From contig DASRBN010000031.1 in NCBI GenBank assembly GCA_035653615.1, positions 186,001 to 250,000 on the forward strand: a DNA stretch of 64,000 bases. Reading direction: 5' to 3'. The stretch is from Ktedonobacteraceae bacterium (GTDB taxonomy: Bacteria > Chloroflexota > Ktedonobacteria > Ktedonobacterales > Ktedonobacteraceae). The translations under genes were made by a program, and so were the position numbers. Below the pieces are notes generated by a model. It saw nothing but the letters and a program-made list of their open reading frames with translations, was not told the origin of the DNA and did not search any database. Shown piece after piece: positions 42,802 through 55,478 of the stretch; positions within the stretch are counted from its first letter, which is position 1, and every line of letters starts with the position of its first letter.

Positions 42802-42897
42802 AGACGTGTTTTGTATATGAAAATGCTTGTGTTACGTGTAGGTAGTGTGTAGTAAAACTCATGAGGGTTTTAGCTATTGAGAGGAGGAGCAATTTCT

Positions 42898-43236
42898 ATG
42901 GTGATCACAATTGGAGATCTGATTATCTGGCTTATTATTGCTGCAATTGTTGGTTTTGTTGGCGAATTGATCGCCCGGCGGCGCACGCCATTTGGTCTGG
43001 TGGGAGCGATCGTGCTGGGCTTTATTGCCATTTTCCTGGTGGTGGGAGTCTTTCATGTCCATATCGTCGGGGAGCCAACCCTGAACGGCGTTCCCTTGAT
43101 CACATCCATTATTGCCGCCGCAATTCTGGTCTTCATCTGGAGCGCTTTTGCCTATCACCACGCCCACCGCTACTATTCTCGCTATTACTATAGGCGCGGT
43201 GGCTATGTGCGCCGTCCGCGCAGGCGCTGGCTTTAG
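42898..43236 (+). CDS. GlsB/YeaQ/YmgE-like membrane protein
   Basis: A 112-residue protein. Three hydrophobic stretches (DLIIWLIIAAIVGFVGELI, FGLVGAIVLGFIAIFLVVGVF, LITSIIAAAILVFIWSAF) with GELIARRR between the first two follow the transglycosylase-associated (GlsB) pattern of small stress-linked membrane proteins. The tail is unusual: His/Tyr/Arg-rich (YHHAHRYYSRYYYRRGGYVRR in parts). ATG 42898 has GAGGAGG upstream. Molecular function of the family is unsettled. Confidence 0.82.
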   Translation: MVITIGDLIIWLIIAAIVGFVGELIARRRTPFGLVGAIVLGFIAIFLVVGVFHVHIVGEPTLNGVPLITSIIAAAILVFIWSAFAYHHAHRYYSRYYYRRGGYVRRPRRRWL

Positions 43237-43270: not shown

Positions 43271-43293
43271 CAGGGACAAGCAGCTGTTCCTAC
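43271..43293. repeat. REP-like 23-nt palindrome, copy A
   Basis: CAGGGACAAG then CAGCTGTTCCTAC, an imperfect palindrome (AGGGACA/TGTTCCT) 34 bp after the GlsB-like gene. The same 23-nt pattern recurs at 46436-46458 and 54518-54540. Confidence 0.7.
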
Positions 43294-43323
43294 GGGATAC
43301 AATCCCTTTTGCTTTCGTCCTGG

Positions 43324-43369
43324 TGGCGATAACGTTGATGCTGAGAATTAGCTGCCAACGTTATCGCCA
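43324..43369. terminator. Bidirectional hairpin between convergent genes
   Basis: A perfect 14-bp stem, TGGCGATAACGTTG (43324-43337) and CAACGTTATCGCCA (43356-43369), with an 18-base loop, between the GlsB-like gene and the permease, five bases past the permease stop. No clear T run on either side. Confidence 0.7.
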
Positions 43370-43374
43370 TCACA

Positions 43375-46300
43375 TTAATCCTCACTCACTCGTAATAGAC
43401 GGCCAGGCGCCGGTCGTAAGCTCACCCGGATCATCGCTGATAGGACAACGATGACAATGACAAGCAAGGCAATGAGAATAACGCTCAATGACGAGGGAAT
43501 GATAATGTGTGGAGGTAAAACCTGCTGTAGTATGTAAAACTGGGCGCTGCTCACATTGCCGGACGAGGCGCCGGCAGGAATGTTGACTACAATCAGGGCA
43601 GGGATGGCTATAATGGCAAAGATTGCGCCAAAAATCCCCCCAAGTAGTATTGCCGCTGTATGCACGATGCCTTGTTCCCATGTTAGCATGCCGATGACCT
43701 GCCTGGGGTCTGCTCCTAGCGAGCGGAACACGACAAACTGGTGCAGGCGGGTGCGCACGCTAAGCCACGATGCAAGAAAGTCTCCCAGCAAGGCCAGCAG
43801 CAGCGTGGTAATTGTGCCGAGGATGAAGAAGGCGGTCAGATTGCGAGACAATGGGTCATTGTTCAATGCGTCGATGATGGCGTGCCTGTCAAGCAGATTA
43901 TTGAGGTAGAGGTACTTTGTCTGCAATGCTGCTCGAACCGGCGCGATTGCCGCCGGGCTATCTGAAACGCGCAGCCAGATGTGATTAAATGGTGTTGGAG
44001 GCGCGGGAGGAACCGGCGGCGCGTATGAGCCTAACTGCTTGCTACTCTTCCCATACGTCGTGAAGTATGTCTGGTAATCCATCAACACGCCGATCGGCGA
44101 TGTATCGTTGCTGGTACCGGCGCTATTATTGATGGACGGAATATGCTGTACCAGTGCCACGACCTGGCAATACATAGGATTGAATGTCTGATTATTGATG
44201 ACCACGTTTAGCAGAGATCCGAGATTCAGGTGCAGCCTGCTGGCCGCAGCTGCATCGACAATGACAGGAATGATATTGCTATGGGCGCTCTGACTACGTA
44301 ACGTGAGTAGTTGTTTCATGAGCGCAGTAAGTGGTTGCGAAGAGTTTTGTGGATTCCAGATGGCCGTGCGTGCATAGGTAGCGGCATCTACCGCCATAAC
44401 CTGTACGGGTATGGATGGATATGATCCGGCGACAAAACCCTGCGTCGTATACCCGAGGGTTACCGAGGTAACACCTGGAATAGCATGGTAGACGGCCATT
44501 TCATCTTGCAGGGTCAAATTATTGGCGTCGGGAGGAATATCGCCGCTAAAATCGGCTCCTACTTCGTAGCTGGCGATATCGATGACGCGTTGTGCCTGCG
44601 ATGCGTTGAATATCAGGGTGAAAATAACGAAGGCAATAGCGAATGCGGGTAACAAGATTGTGCGCAGGGTGTAGCGTGGGGAACGGGCCATTTGTGTAAG
44701 CGCTAAAACGGAGACAGCTCCCCGGCCACGTATGACGATCGATGTTCCCAATCTCAAGAGCAAGGGAAAGAAGCGTAAGAACAGGACCATGATCGCGAAG
44801 ACGAAAAAGATTGAGGCTACGATGGTCAGAGGGGTCTGCACCAGCGTTTTTGTGCCCAGGTCAAGCTGATTCCCAAGCCGGGTCAGGTAGAGCGAAAGCC
44901 CAAATGCGGTGAGGGCAATAATTGCGGCTCCGCCATCGAGTCTGAGATGTTGCCATACCGTCGTGCGGCTCGAACGCGCTGTTGCCTGGCGCAGTGAGAG
45001 GATATTCATGCTTGCTGCTCTTCGGAAAAGCAAGGCCAGTGCAAGTGTAACGACCAGCGCGGTTCCCACCGCGTACCAGCTTACGCTCAGTATCACCTGC
45101 ATAGGGTCACTCATGATCAGGGAAATAATTCCTTGTGCCTGAGATCCCAGCAGGCGTAGAGCAATTGCAGAGGCTATAACAAGAGCAAGCGGCGGCCCAA
45201 TGACAAGGGCAACAATACCTATACCAATTCCCTGGGTGATCAGCGTCCCTGCTATCTGACCACCACTCGCGCCCCGGCTGCGGAGCATAGCAATAGCCTG
45301 AGCCTGCCGTTCAACCAGAATATCGGCGGTCAGGCTGATGAATACCAGGATCATACCGATCATTTGCAGAGCGAGGATAGCCGCGGGAACGCGAAAAACA
45401 TCGACCCGATTGAGGTAGCTTTCCAACACATCAAGCATGGTAAATGAGCCGGGGACAGGATCATAGATGCTTGCCTGGGCCAGGTATGGAGAACTGGTGG
45501 CTGCGATTGCTCCATATTTATTCTGGACATCTTCCTGCAAGGTAGTGAGCCGGTCGGCAAGGTCTGTATACTGGTTGTAGGCGATGTGGGAAATATCCAG
45601 GTGGTAATCCCAGAGCAATTCGAACGCATTTGCTGTGAAGACCGCGTTCGTGTGCAGGGACGCGGCGAGATGATCGAATCTCGCCAGGAAAGCCCCGATG
45701 GGCGCGATTACACTGGCGGCGCTGTACTCATTCCCCGGAATCGCCTGCAATGTGTTCCCATGCCAGATATAATCATTGACAGCGTTGACTTTGAACAGCC
45801 CTACGACGCGCACTTTCAATATCCCAGGCGCGAAGTTGTTCATTGCCACATCCTTGAAATGCGCGGCTCGCTCGAATTGAAGTTGTAATATGGAACCCAC
45901 CTTGACATGCAGGCTCTGAGCAGTGGGAGCGGTGAGAAGAACTTCAAGCACATCGCCTGTCTCGCGTGGAAGCCGGCCTTGCAAGAGGGTAAGATGAGAA
46001 GAGGCCTGTTCTATGGATGTAGCAAAGATATTTAATGGGTTGTAGCTATTGGGAGTATTGGGTGCTGCGTAGATAAACCCGGTTTCCTTGATGGAGAAGA
46101 GGACAGGCTCGTGTGTATAGCTACCAATGCGCGCCTGGAGGTAGGGATCAAGTTGCTGCTGGATATTCTGGACAACGGAGGTTGAAAGCCCCGGAGCGAG
46201 CGCGTCGAGTGTAAATTCGGAACCCCCAGGAGTGCTGTTTAGTGTTGTTTGCAGCCCTGCCGTCGTCATGACCTCTGAGAAAAGCGGTATCGCACAAACC

Positions 46301-49300
46301 ATTACGATGGCAGCAATGATTCCTATGCCTGTAGTAACCAACAATAGCCATGTCCGCCGCGCCTGGCCGGATGCAAGTACTATAAAAGACAGTCCTGCTG
46401 GACGTGATACCTTTCGTGCTGGCCTTGCAAGTCCTGTAGGGACAGTAGCTTGTCCCTGTCCTGCTGCTGGGACTCGTCGCTGTCCAACTGCCCCCACCTC
46501 TCTCAGCACGGCAAGGGGTGGTTGATCTTCATCGAGCCGGAGCGTTGAACTCATGGAGGGTCGTAACGCAACCCGGGCCATGATCATCACAGCGGCAGCA
46601 CAGAGCATGACCAGCAGGGCGAAGGCAATCCCCAAAGTCCAGGGGAACACGATCTGAGCAGGGATCAGTTGCTGAATGAACATCGTGGTCATACTATTGG
46701 CGTCACCGGGTATGGCGGAAGGCGTTGAGAGCAGCAGGGTTGGTACAACCGTAAGCGCGAGCAGTATGCCAGAGGCAGTACCAAGGCATAGAGCAGTCAA
46801 ATAGACAAGAGTTTGCTCGAAAGCCATTACGCCGGTTACCTGGCGAGGGGTAGCCCCGAGAGCGCGTAGGGCGACGAATTGATTGAGGCGGCTGCGCACG
46901 CTCAACCACGATGCCAGCAGATCGCCAATGAGAGCCAGCAGCAGTGCCGCAATTACTCCCAATGATAGGACGATGATGAGATTGAGGTAGAATGGCTCGT
47001 TCTGCAAGTTGCTCATGATCACTCGCCGGTCTTGCAGGTAATTCAGGTAAAGATTTGATGACTGGAGCACACTACGTACATGTGCGATGGCAGTCGGGTC
47101 ATCAGATGTATGCAGCCAGACATGATTGGCGGGCGGCTCAAACCCGTAGAGGCGTTTCTCAATGGTCGAAAAGGTCTGGTAATCGACAATCATCTTACCG
47201 AATTGCTGGCCATTTACGATTTCGAGGTCGGTAAGTGTTGGGATAGCCTGAACTTCAGCGATAGCGATGTAGCGTATGTTGTCGGTGAGCGTCCCATTCT
47301 GATGAACAAAGAACGATTCTCCTACGTGTAAGCCGAGCCTGTTCCATGTCTGGGCATCAACGATAGCCGGAATAACATGTTGGTGGATTGCTACATTTCT
47401 CCGGCCTGCCAGCTGCGCGAGAAGGGAACTCAATGGCTGGGATGAGTTCTGTGCATTCCAGGTGGTGGCCTGGGCAAATGTGCCTGGATCGATAGCTTGC
47501 ACATCCAGCAGGTAGAGATTGTTGAGATCTCCCACGGATTCTTCCGCTACTTCCCCTACCGACGCGGCGAGAACGCCGCGAATGTTACGATAGCGCTCCG
47601 TTTCAACGTTTACCGGATACGTAGGGGCTGTGCTGGGAATGCTGCCACTGAAATCTGCCCCTGCTGCATAGTTCGCCAGGTTCGTCGCTCGCTGCGTTTG
47701 TGATGCTGAAAAACTCAGGGTAAATATGGCGAAGGCGGTCGCTAATGCAAGCAGCAGAATCATGCGTAGCGATTGACGAGGGGAGCGAGAAAGCTGGGTT
47801 ATCGCCAACATGGGGACAGCTCCCCGGCCACGAGCCAGCAAGCGCGATGCCAGTTGCAATAGTGCTGGCGTAATGCGCAGGAAGAGCAGGACGGCCGCCA
47901 GCAGTAAGAAGACAGGCGCAATTAATCCGATTGGAGCAGAAACGAGCGCCTGAGCTTGAGCGTCAAGTAATCCCCCGATATCGGCCAGGTACACCGCGAT
48001 CCCATAGCCGGTCAGTGCGATGATTGCAGCAACGAGGTCAAGATTGAGGCGTTGCGATAGTGGACGCGCAGCAGCGCGTCCACTTTCACGTCGCAGGGCC
48101 GGAGCGTAAATACGCGAAGCCCGGTACAGTGCAGCTATCGATACGATACTGATACTACCTGCTATTGCCAGGGCGTACCACCTGGCATTCCATAATGCAG
48201 TGAGAGGATCGTTGGTAAGTACCTTGATTGCGTCCTGGTTGGTTGCTGATAGTGCGTGTTGGGCAATAGAAACTGCCGCTACATAGGCCAGCAGAGGGCT
48301 GGCAATGAGCGCAAAGATGCACAGGACAAGACTCTGCGTGATATGCGATGCAAAGATCTGCCTGGTACTCGCGCCCCGGCTGCGTAAAAGGGTAATGGCA
48401 TGAGACTGCCGCTCAATCAGCAGTTCTGTCATGATGGCGGTGAAAAATAGCAGCAGGCAAATGATCTGCAGGGTTACAATAAAGATGGGAATCCTGGCAA
48501 TAGCTAAGCTGCTGTGAAAGCTCTCTAATGAACCCGGAGCGGCGTAAGTACTCAAGACAGAGCCGGTTACATCAAAACCTTGTACGAGGGGGAGCTGGTA
48601 AAGCAAAGCGAGGCTACTTGCCTGATTGACGGCTTCCTGTGTAGCTGCGAGCTGCGCGATGAGGTCATCGAGGTTATCGAGCGAGACGCGCGATGGGTCC
48701 AGGTAGTAATACCAGCTCAGGCTGCCGAAGTATCCCTGGAGAAAGTAAACCGTGTCCGCGCTATGAGTTGCCGCGGCAGAATCCAACGCCGCGAGTAGAG
48801 ACTCATTGGAGGTGAGCGCCGCATAATGGATGCGGGTTTCGTGCGATTGGGGTTGGAAATCTTCTCCATGCCAGAAGGAATCGTTCGGCTTCACTTCAAA
48901 TATGCCGACAACGTGCAGTTTGAACCGCTGGCAGTAGTTGCCGAAAGAAGTGACGGGAGTAGTGTCCTTACCACCAGGGTCGATAGAGCAGAACGATTGC
49001 TGGAGAACGGTGGTCGGAGTACCTCTTACCGGGATGGTGGAGAGATTTGATACTACTGTAATGATGCTGCCAATCTTGACGTGTAAGGCAGCAGCTGTAT
49101 CAGGCGTTAGAGCAATTTCGATATCCTGGCTTGAGGAATTTGGCAATCGTCCTTGTTTCAGTATCACATGGGATGTGGTTTCATTTATTGGGTTACCGTA
49201 GAGACGCAATGGTGTGCGGAGTTGAGCTTCCTGGGGCGCGATGATACTGAACTCAGGGGTCTGAATTTCAAGCCGTGGTTGTCCTTGCAGGTAGGGAGCG

Positions 49301-49620
49301 AGATTATCTTCAAAAGGGGAACCACCAGATCGGTAAATCGAAGAGAGGGTGCGTGAGGATAATCCTGTTATCTGGGTATGCAGCGTCAATTCTGCCGCCA
49401 GGGGTGAGGTCGTCAGGGTATCATGCAATGCGGCAGTTTGGAAAACCAGCGTAAGCAGAGGGAGAATACATACCAACGTGATGGCTGCCAACATGCCCAG
49501 GAATGTGAGCAGAAGCAAAAACCAGTGCTGGCGCCAGCGCCAGAATGCCAGCGCCACTACCGAATTTAGCCGGTTGAGTATAGTGCTGGCCTGCGCGAAT
49601 TGCCTGGAAGGCCTGTTCAT
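43375..49620 (-). CDS. Doubled FtsX/MacB-type ABC permease, 2081 residues
   Basis: The protein is two similar halves, about 1-1045 and 1090-2081. Each begins with a basic segment and helix (WRWRQHWFLLLLTFLGMLAAITLVCILP; RRTWLLLVTTGIGIIAAIVMVCAIP), a first large outside domain with matching phrases (LTPDTAAALHVKIGSI; LTAPTAQSLHVKVGSI), an FtsX block with ERQSHAITLLRSRGAS or ERQAQAIAMLRSRGAS, middle helices, a second outside domain, and a final FtsX block with LASWLSVRSRLNQFVALRALGATPRQV or its twin. That gives about 20 helices, as if a dimer of permeases were made in one chain. No ABC ATPase is adjacent. A linker of about 45 residues (near 1046-1090) contains a REP-like DNA repeat. A promoter lies upstream. 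Confidence 0.9.
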   Translation of the reverse strand: MNRPSRQFAQASTILNRLNSVVALAFWRWRQHWFLLLLTFLGMLAAITLVCILPLLTLVFQTAALHDTLTTSPLAAELTLHTQITGLSSRTLSSIYRSGGSPFEDNLAPYLQGQPRLEIQTPEFSIIAPQEAQLRTPLRLYGNPINETTSHVILKQGRLPNSSSQDIEIALTPDTAAALHVKIGSIITVVSNLSTIPVRGTPTTVLQQSFCSIDPGGKDTTPVTSFGNYCQRFKLHVVGIFEVKPNDSFWHGEDFQPQSHETRIHYAALTSNESLLAALDSAAATHSADTVYFLQGYFGSLSWYYYLDPSRVSLDNLDDLIAQLAATQEAVNQASSLALLYQLPLVQGFDVTGSVLSTYAAPGSLESFHSSLAIARIPIFIVTLQIICLLLFFTAIMTELLIERQSHAITLLRSRGASTRQIFASHITQSLVLCIFALIASPLLAYVAAVSIAQHALSATNQDAIKVLTNDPLTALWNARWYALAIAGSISIVSIAALYRASRIYAPALRRESGRAAARPLSQRLNLDLVAAIIALTGYGIAVYLADIGGLLDAQAQALVSAPIGLIAPVFLLLAAVLLFLRITPALLQLASRLLARGRGAVPMLAITQLSRSPRQSLRMILLLALATAFAIFTLSFSASQTQRATNLANYAAGADFSGSIPSTAPTYPVNVETERYRNIRGVLAASVGEVAEESVGDLNNLYLLDVQAIDPGTFAQATTWNAQNSSQPLSSLLAQLAGRRNVAIHQHVIPAIVDAQTWNRLGLHVGESFFVHQNGTLTDNIRYIAIAEVQAIPTLTDLEIVNGQQFGKMIVDYQTFSTIEKRLYGFEPPANHVWLHTSDDPTAIAHVRSVLQSSNLYLNYLQDRRVIMSNLQNEPFYLNLIIVLSLGVIAALLLALIGDLLASWLSVRSRLNQFVALRALGATPRQVTGVMAFEQTLVYLTALCLGTASGILLALTVVPTLLLSTPSAIPGDANSMTTMFIQQLIPAQIVFPWTLGIAFALLVMLCAAAVMIMARVALRPSMSSTLRLDEDQPPLAVLREVGAVGQRRVPAAGQGQATVPTGLARPARKVSRPAGLSFIVLASGQARRTWLLLVTTGIGIIAAIVMVCAIPLFSEVMTTAGLQTTLNSTPGGSEFTLDALAPGLSTSVVQNIQQQLDPYLQARIGSYTHEPVLFSIKETGFIYAAPNTPNSYNPLNIFATSIEQASSHLTLLQGRLPRETGDVLEVLLTAPTAQSLHVKVGSILQLQFERAAHFKDVAMNNFAPGILKVRVVGLFKVNAVNDYIWHGNTLQAIPGNEYSAASVIAPIGAFLARFDHLAASLHTNAVFTANAFELLWDYHLDISHIAYNQYTDLADRLTTLQEDVQNKYGAIAATSSPYLAQASIYDPVPGSFTMLDVLESYLNRVDVFRVPAAILALQMIGMILVFISLTADILVERQAQAIAMLRSRGASGGQIAGTLITQGIGIGIVALVIGPPLALVIASAIALRLLGSQAQGIISLIMSDPMQVILSVSWYAVGTALVVTLALALLFRRAASMNILSLRQATARSSRTTVWQHLRLDGGAAIIALTAFGLSLYLTRLGNQLDLGTKTLVQTPLTIVASIFFVFAIMVLFLRFFPLLLRLGTSIVIRGRGAVSVLALTQMARSPRYTLRTILLPAFAIAFVIFTLIFNASQAQRVIDIASYEVGADFSGDIPPDANNLTLQDEMAVYHAIPGVTSVTLGYTTQGFVAGSYPSIPVQVMAVDAATYARTAIWNPQNSSQPLTALMKQLLTLRSQSAHSNIIPVIVDAAAASRLHLNLGSLLNVVINNQTFNPMYCQVVALVQHIPSINNSAGTSNDTSPIGVLMDYQTYFTTYGKSSKQLGSYAPPVPPAPPTPFNHIWLRVSDSPAAIAPVRAALQTKYLYLNNLLDRHAIIDALNNDPLSRNLTAFFILGTITTLLLALLGDFLASWLSVRTRLHQFVVFRSLGADPRQVIGMLTWEQGIVHTAAILLGGIFGAIFAIIAIPALIVVNIPAGASSGNVSSAQFYILQQVLPPHIIIPSSLSVILIALLVIVIVVLSAMIRVSLRPAPGRLLRVSED
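46436..46458 (-). repeat. REP-like 23-nt palindrome, copy B, inside a gene
   Basis: Read on the minus strand: CAGGGACAAG then CTACTGTCCCTAC. It matches copy A at all but four positions and is translated in frame as part of GQGQATVPT (about residues 1055-1063) in the linker between the two permease halves. Confidence 0.7.
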
Positions 49621-53499: not shown

Positions 53500-54159
53500 T
53501 TATGGATCACGTCGCCCAACCAATCCCTGTTGCCAGGCATAAACAGCTGCCTGGGTACGATCCATCATGTGTAATTTGCCCAGGATGTTGCTAACATGGC
53601 CCTTGACCGTCTTTTCGCTGATGACCAGCTTCTCGGCAATCTCGGCGTTGGAGAGGCCGTCCGCGATCAAGCGCAATACCTCTAATTCGCGGTCGCTCAG
53701 GTCTGTAAAAAGGTTCGGCGTATCGCGCCGTGTGCCGCGAAGTTCCTCGACTACGCGAGAGGCGACGCGTGGATGCAGCACGGATTCGCCGCGTGCCGCC
53801 TTGCGCACGATATCGGCAAGCTCATCGGGTCCAACATCTTTCAGGACATATGAAAGCGCTCCGGCCCGCAGTGCAGGAAAAATATATTCGTCTTCGTGGT
53901 AAGAGGTAAGCACAATGATTTGTGAGTGTGGACTCGCTTGCTTAACCTGTCGTGTTGCTTCGACCCCTCCTATACCCGGCATAACGAGGTCCATAAGTAC
54001 CACGTCCGGCGCAAGTTCTGCCACCATGCGGACCGCTTCCTCACCAGAGCCTGCCTCACCAACCACATTAAGGTCAGGCTGCAACTCCAAAAAAGCGCGT
54101 ATCCCCTGTCTCACAAGAGCATGGTCGTCGGTAATGAGTAGCGAAATTTTGTCTATCAT
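53500..54159 (-). CDS. NarL/LuxR-family response regulator
   Basis: A 219-residue regulator. Receiver domain: acidic pair in LLITDDH, phosphoacceptor Asp57 in VLMDLVMPG, Thr in IVLTSYHED, Lys107 in SYVLKDVG. Output: LuxR-type helix-turn-helix from about 150 (LSDRELEVLRLIADGLSNAEIAEKLVISEKTVKGHV, in the usual spacing). The sequence resembles the LiaR/DegU type. No histidine kinase is adjacent, so the cognate sensor is elsewhere. Likely a transcription activator responding to envelope or other stress. Confidence 0.93.
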   Translation of the reverse strand: MIDKISLLITDDHALVRQGIRAFLELQPDLNVVGEAGSGEEAVRMVAELAPDVVLMDLVMPGIGGVEATRQVKQASPHSQIIVLTSYHEDEYIFPALRAGALSYVLKDVGPDELADIVRKAARGESVLHPRVASRVVEELRGTRRDTPNLFTDLSDRELEVLRLIADGLSNAEIAEKLVISEKTVKGHVSNILGKLHMMDRTQAAVYAWQQGLVGRRDP

Positions 54160-54517: not shown

Positions 54518-54540
54518 CAGGGACCGGCCGCTGTTCCTAC
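54518..54540. repeat. REP-like 23-nt palindrome, copy C
   Basis: CAGGGACCGG then CCGCTGTTCCTAC, same length and same fixed positions as copies A and B; the flank GGACAG/GAGGACAG upstream is also shared with copy B. Confidence 0.7.
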
Positions 54541-54719: not shown

Positions 54720-55478
54720 ATGTCGATACCTCCCAATGCCCTTGGAACCTCCTCAAAATCACTTGTTGAATGGATGAACGAGGGGATTACTTATTACAAA
54801 GCAAAGTGTTATGAGAAGGCGTTGTTCGCCTATGAACGCGCCATTGAGATAAACCCTTTCTATGGTTTTGCCTACAGTAACAAGGCCGGTGTACTCAATG
54901 CGCTTGGTCGCTATGAGCAAGCTCTAGCTGCCTACGAGCAGGCCATTGAGCTTCGTGCCAACTCCGCTTACGATTATATCGGCAAGGGAGATGTCCTTTG
55001 CAACCTTCACCGTTACGAGGAGGCGTTGATTGCCTATCAACGCGCATTGCGACTCAGCTCCGATAATATCTATGCTCATAAGGGGATAGGAGATGCGCTC
55101 TATGGCCTCCGGCGCTACGAGGAAGCGCTTCATGCCTTTCAGATAGTCATTCAACTTGATCCTTATGCTGCTGATACCTACTGTAGCATGGGCGATATCT
55201 TGACGGAGATGCAGAGCTATGAACAGGCTTTGCGTGCCTATTCAATGGCCATCCGGCTCGATCCCCGCTCCGCGACTACCTACAATAATCTGGGCAACTT
55301 GCTGCTATTGATGAAGAATCCAGAGGGTGCTGTGCGGAGTTATACTGAAGCCATCCGGCTCAATCCCAACGAGGCCGCTCTTTACTACAATTTGAGCCTT
55401 GTGCTTGCCGAGTTAGGTCGGGACGAAGAGGCCAGACAAGCAATGGAACGAGCCAGAGAACTGGGATATGGAATATAA
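54720..55478 (+). CDS. Tetratricopeptide-repeat protein
   Basis: A 252-residue protein made almost wholly of about seven 34-residue TPR units from residue 19 (for example ALFAYERAIEINPFYGFAY, ALAAYEQAIELRANSAYDY, AVRSYTEAIRLNPNEAALY). Such superhelices hold other proteins. There is no signal peptide or membrane segment, so it is cytoplasmic. Its partner cannot be told. The ATG lacks a strong ribosome site, which may mean low expression or a leaderless-like start. Confidence 0.88.
   Translation: MSIPPNALGTSSKSLVEWMNEGITYYKAKCYEKALFAYERAIEINPFYGFAYSNKAGVLNALGRYEQALAAYEQAIELRANSAYDYIGKGDVLCNLHRYEEALIAYQRALRLSSDNIYAHKGIGDALYGLRRYEEALHAFQIVIQLDPYAADTYCSMGDILTEMQSYEQALRAYSMAIRLDPRSATTYNNLGNLLLLMKNPEGAVRSYTEAIRLNPNEAALYYNLSLVLAELGRDEEARQAMERARELGYGI

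Follow-up and report, generated by a model that had tools for sequence, protein, structure and literature searches.

The palindromic 23-mer found in the linker of a double-length permease gene, within the window analysed here (the whole stretch of 64,000 nt), belongs to a GTAG-tagged REP/REPIN family that has spread to many copies in the host genome. To judge from comparison with related sequences, the permease itself is most likely a fusion of two tandem genes, and we put at roughly 55% the reading in which the REP already lay in the DNA between the two conserved cores when the genes became fused, and was translated from then on. A translated GTAG-REP at the joint of a probable fusion is an ordinary example of its kind, repeats inside genes being already known. 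What the analysis adds is a GTAG-REP/REPIN family, apparently without a RAYT, from a Ktedonobacterales-like genome, and whether the REP or the fusion came first bears on the question of whether mobile hairpins help to make joined proteins. The features of the permease and the REP copies of the window are collected in Table 1.

Table 1. Permease features and REP copies in the window (coordinates are those of the window).
Feature	Position	Strand	Remarks
Permease half 1	46525..49620	-	residues 1-1032, ends LRLDED
CAA codon at the stop position of tandem relatives	46522..46524	-	
Linker	46396..46524	-	residues 1033-1075, non-coding-like codon usage in present frame
REP core in permease linker	46436..46458	+	GTAGGGACAGTAGCTTGTCCCTG; weight-matrix score 37.2 of 41.75
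Likely full REP unit	46434..46461	+	conserved CT before the core, TCC after it
Permease half 2	43375..46395	-	residues 1076-2081 plus stop, ends LRVSED
REP copy between converging genes	43271..43293	-	3 mismatches to the linker copy
REP copy between diverging genes	54518..54540	-	5 mismatches to the linker copy

The REP family and its copies

A search of the 6.59 Mb host genome with the 23-nt REP pattern, allowing up to 3 mismatches, returned 136 matches (74 forward and 62 reverse), versus none on either strand for the reversed pattern in the same genome. When no more than 2 mismatches to the consensus were allowed, 126 matches were found in the host genome and none in the 28 other genomes of the same family. 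A wider pattern was then applied to stretches around 100 of the 136 sites plus six more, and its yield is a sample and not a whole-genome census: 159 hits in overlapping stretches were reduced to 139 unique copies by merging duplicates, with 2 hits for the reversed control and 0, 1 and 0 for shuffled ones. The core consensus of these 139 copies is GTAGGGACAGCGGCTTGTCCCTG, its first four positions being G in 131, T in 131, A in 132 and G in 131, counts that are partly built in since the collecting pattern itself begins with GTAG. Flanking bases are conserved as well, with C at -2 in 117 copies, T at -1 in 95, T at +24 and C at +25 in 124 each, and C at +26 in 127. The copies fall into 104 clusters (74 singles, 25 pairs and 5 triples); 26 of the 35 neighbouring pairs stand head-to-head with GTAG outside, and 11 of these 26 share a spacing of 43 bp from start to start. 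Compared with shuffled sequences the hairpin of the consensus has a z-score of -2.39, and a 66-nt REP pair folds as a near-complete hairpin (z -12.25). Taken together, the GTAG tag, the small hairpin, the high copy number and the head-to-head pairing identify the family as GTAG-REP with REPIN-like pairs, an assignment made by features and not by sequence match to the 24 published families. Two sub-types were also seen to co-vary at core positions 13 and 19, with G/C in most copies and C/G in about 35.

Ninety-two of the 139 copies lie between called genes, 35 inside them and 12 partly inside. The first-pass annotation had called the palindrome REP-like, and both the genome-wide count and this mainly intergenic placement bear the description out; the same two results tell against a chance match. 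The other sceptical reading, that conservation acts on the peptide rather than on the DNA, runs counter to the several frames in which translated copies are read (QGQAAVPT, DRDKPLSLQ, VGTATRPCP). We found no support for either idea and regard them as very improbable.

Within the window, a weight-matrix scan detected three REP sites, scoring 37.2, 33.9 and 32.0, with the next best site at 9.0 or less. It had been proposed that one 23-mer occurs twice in intergenic DNA and once, on the other strand, in the permease linker. The sites and the opposite orientation of the linker copy stand, whereas a single identical sequence is ruled out, since 3 positions of one intergenic copy (43271-43293) and 5 of the other (54518-54540) do not match the linker copy. 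The first of these lies between an ORF at 42877-43236 (plus strand) and the permease stop, and the second between ORFs at 53500-54159 (minus strand) and 54720-55478 (plus strand). The linker REP forms an imperfect hairpin behind its GTAG tag and, folded as single-stranded DNA, does better than its shuffles (z -2.59); the two intergenic copies fold no better than theirs (z +1.25 and -0.53). The predicted translation of the palindrome agrees with that given in the first-pass annotation, its minus strand being in frame and coding within GQGQATVPT, permease residues 1054-1062. Downstream of the permease stop and beside the REP at 43271-43293 there is also a strong inverted repeat (43322-43372; arms of about 16 bases with one mismatch, judged by eye), which may serve as a terminator common to both converging genes.

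The best match to a RAYT model in the host genome reached 26.6 bits where the cut-off is 80, in an assembly that is 95.24% complete and in 44 contigs, such that a RAYT gene could have been missed. Three of 29 family genomes pass the model, the host genome not among them. The only Y1_Tnp match in the genome is an IS200/IS605 TnpA adjoining a TnpB. This transposase, about 270 bp from a REP, was considered as a candidate RAYT and rejected, given its TnpB partner and a REP that by eye lies outside the element. The IS200/IS605 element itself (L077:526-2141) encodes TnpA and a TnpB of the RNA-guided type.

Bertels and Rainey reportedly describe a REPIN as a pair of REPs in inverted orientation, separated by a short spacer. 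The family of the host genome resembles this in its paired inverted REPs, of which the head-to-head pairs counted above are the instance, and differs from REPIN-RAYT systems in that no RAYT scores above the model cut-off in the host genome and the REP of the linker is unpaired. For GTAG REPs, Di Nocera, De Gregorio and Rocco (2013; PMC3733652) describe a 5' GTAG tag, a hairpin of 20-40 bp and a high copy number, with a mostly intergenic location, head-to-head dimers 20-100 bp apart and some copies within ORFs. The same paper (PMC3733652) states that the TAG of the tag serves flanking ORFs as a stop, reports GTAG repeats in the Chloroflexi phylum with families that are species-specific, and mentions Rickettsia palindromic elements (RPEs). 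Tag, hairpin, copy number, intergenic bias, dimers, TAG stops and copies within ORFs are all common to the published GTAG REPs and the present family; unlike the former, the host assembly has yielded no RAYT, and one copy sits where the two halves of a probable fusion gene meet. Among the matches listed by a literature search, none dealt with REPs in Ktedonobacter or with REPs located at gene fusions, a result from which we do not claim their absence from print.

REPs inside other genes

Genes were called with a home-made, codon-based program that takes the first start codon, and many of the 35 copies counted as inside genes lie at doubtful ORF ends. In 9 of the 12 partial overlaps, the called ORF next to the REP terminates at the TAG of the GTAG tag (L004:1501-1504, L126:1994-1997 and L142:1998-2001 are examples). 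Twelve copies are strictly interior, flanked by 60 or more codons both upstream and downstream, those of L100, L118, L126 and L141 being less sure as they carry 2 or 3 mismatches. Coding-like flanks were found for 8 of the 12. At least one flank scores below zero in the other 4, namely the window copy, both copies in a DnaJ-domain gene and one of two copies in a FemAB gene; in the FemAB case this applies to the upstream flank only, and the window copy alone among the 12 has both of its 60-codon flanks below zero.

The REP hosts belong to the Pfam families Pkinase, glycosyltransferase, DnaJ, S9 peptidase, MFS, BTAD with TPR, AMP-binding and FemAB; one of the nine hosts scanned gave no match at all, and WD40 matches in the DnaJ-domain host are sub-threshold. 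When five hosts were compared with aligned homologues, three were found to carry the REP as an insert that the homologues lack. In the DnaJ-domain gene, itself conserved across the family, two consecutive REPs (L106:1939-2015) occupy an in-frame insert of 27 residues absent from 5 of 7 homologues, the insert measuring 25 residues relative to the other 2. The glycosyltransferase has an 8-residue REP insert relative to 4 of 4 homologues, and the S9 peptidase a 6-residue insert, shorter than a whole REP, relative to 5 of 5. A clean insertion was considered and dropped for the FemAB host and for a methyltransferase-like host (named by eye), where the length of the REP region differs from one homologue to another, or the host copy is the shorter one. 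The in-frame inserts of the first three hosts suggest that the element enters coding DNA in frame, or persists there only when it is in frame.

RPEs are palindromic repeats that have entered unrelated protein genes in frame and are translated as part of them. Judging from the predicted reading frames, the REPs of the host genome would be comparable in lying in frame in several unrelated proteins; they differ from RPEs in sequence and in organism, and most of their copies are intergenic.

Origin of the double-length permease

The permease ORF (43375-49620, minus strand) encodes 2081 residues in two homologous halves and, taken as a whole, matches the FtsX domain PF02687 in four stretches (76.9 bits versus a cut-off of 25.5). 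Both halves are open and coding-like, with scores of 136 and 155, and the codon that follows LRLDED at the end of the first half, CAA, is one change away from TAA. For comparison we opened 20 stretches (one of which is the transposase locus) and one MAG contig, in which the permeases are mostly single-length and many stand in tandem. All 11 tandem junctions that were read (10 from relatives, 1 from the host genome, several from one genus) show an upstream gene ending in LR-L/Y-N-x-D-stop and a gap of 5 to 300 nt from this stop to the script-chosen start of the next gene. The consistent stop in the tandem genes, set against the CAA after LRLDED, supports as most likely the earlier suggestion that the two halves were once separate genes. 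The unfused state of the window permease was seen in no close relative; a search of genome_contigs for such a relative gave one Ktedonobacterales MAG contig, at 39% identity, which is uninformative for the linker.

Two other double-length permeases were encountered. A paralogue in the same genome (C41; L062, G000:C41:52000-59300) has 2044 residues with LRLSED followed by GGG, and another in a relative without the REP family (G006; L070) has 2036 residues with LRLGED followed by TAT, and permease fusions may have happened more than once. Ahead of the second half of C41 a Shine-Dalgarno-like stretch and a GTG were seen by eye, and this half may also start on its own. In the permease tree, half 1 of the window gene pairs with half 1 of C41 (98/94), and half 2 groups with half 2 of C41 together with a second-half fragment, C12 (100/97), which begins beside another ORF and has no readable first half there. 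From this half-for-half pairing, the pair of halves seems to be older than the duplication that separated the window gene and C41.

Given that C41 is also fused and that its halves pair with those of the window gene, one old fusion common to both, with the REP inserted later and in frame into an already coding linker, needs fewer fusions, and we treat this history as possible, if doubtful. The in-frame inserts of the DnaJ-domain gene, the glycosyltransferase and the S9 peptidase are precedents for such an insertion, and the half 2 match of the window gene begins 12 residues further from LRLxED than that of C41, or about one REP. However, the linkers of the two genes have no significant similarity (with or without the ten REP residues, 16.8% and 16.4% of 2000 shuffles reach an equal or higher score), and the REP of the window is flanked on both sides by non-coding-like codon usage, unlike the strict interior cases. 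An equal linker length of 36 residues, obtained after removing ten residues, was discarded as evidence, being an artefact of the chosen cut.

The first-pass annotation had suggested that related permease linkers be examined for the repeat or for a stop codon. A stop is present in the tandem relatives at every junction read, and no REP was encountered on reading the linkers of the C41 and G006 double-length permeases. Conservation of the linker as protein in other species, which it had named as the finding that would count against its proposal, was not seen in the comparison with the C41 linker, a resemblance that some 16% of shuffles match in score.

The linker and the arrival of the REP

The synonymous codon score of the linker is below that of 2439 of 2440 gene windows, taken from called genes scoring at least 40 with the permease left out, and nowhere else in the permease gene is the score lower; a second score puts 8 of 3231 gene windows at or below the linker. 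The low score extends over both sides of the REP and is not confined to the repeat, and the C41 linker is about neutral. Odd codon usage of this kind is expected of DNA that has only lately been translated in its present frame. The linker also scores below 98% of intergenic windows, and it is thus not simply like average spacer DNA.

In the history that we favour, in which the REP preceded the fusion, two tandem permease genes would have lost the stop between them, where CAA now stands; that the stop was lost rather than gained is what we infer. The REP would have sat in weakly constrained DNA, either in a short spacer or in the variable N-terminal tail with which the second gene began. Between the junction and transmembrane 1, two GTGs are the only in-frame codons of a start type, and since both are upstream of the REP, its place may have been the tail instead of the spacer. 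No stop occurs in five of the element's six reading frames, as read from its sequence, and it would therefore be translated once the frame was open, contributing about eight to ten residues to the linker of a fused protein that is presumably made and working.

It is unlikely, in our estimation, that there is no working fusion and that the long ORF reflects a sequence error or a decaying gene, the second permease starting alone, for example at a TTG at 46487 in the +1 frame, a version that requires a small frame change before transmembrane 1. The +1 frame was suggested by the GC content of the linker by codon position (0.86, 0.65 and 0.30), and the 34 open codons that follow the TTG in this frame score -1.5 versus -11.1 in frame 0. 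A Shine-Dalgarno-like GAGGTG precedes the TTG, which lies 34 nt after the CAA and so within the 5 to 300 nt of the tandem genes. On the other hand, 177 of 929 intergenic starts with a Shine-Dalgarno-like site are as good, a lost stop plus a frame change would be needed, and both long halves are open and coding-like. A real start at the TTG would place the REP in the second gene's tail, outside the spacer.

That the REP marks the old intergenic space, as was originally proposed, is possible on the sequence evidence. The fusion part of that proposal fared well; the marking part did not, as in-frame REPs in unrelated genes together with the REP-free linker of C41 make the repeat no sure mark of an old spacer. 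We consider it quite improbable that the fusion was driven by the REP, whose arrival in the short spacer or in the start region of the second permease gene would have disturbed separate initiation or provided an open bridge and so favoured loss of the stop; a mobile repeat would then have become a protein joint. REPs have been taken up by other genes of the host genome with no sign of fusion, which counts against the history that we favour for the linker copy.
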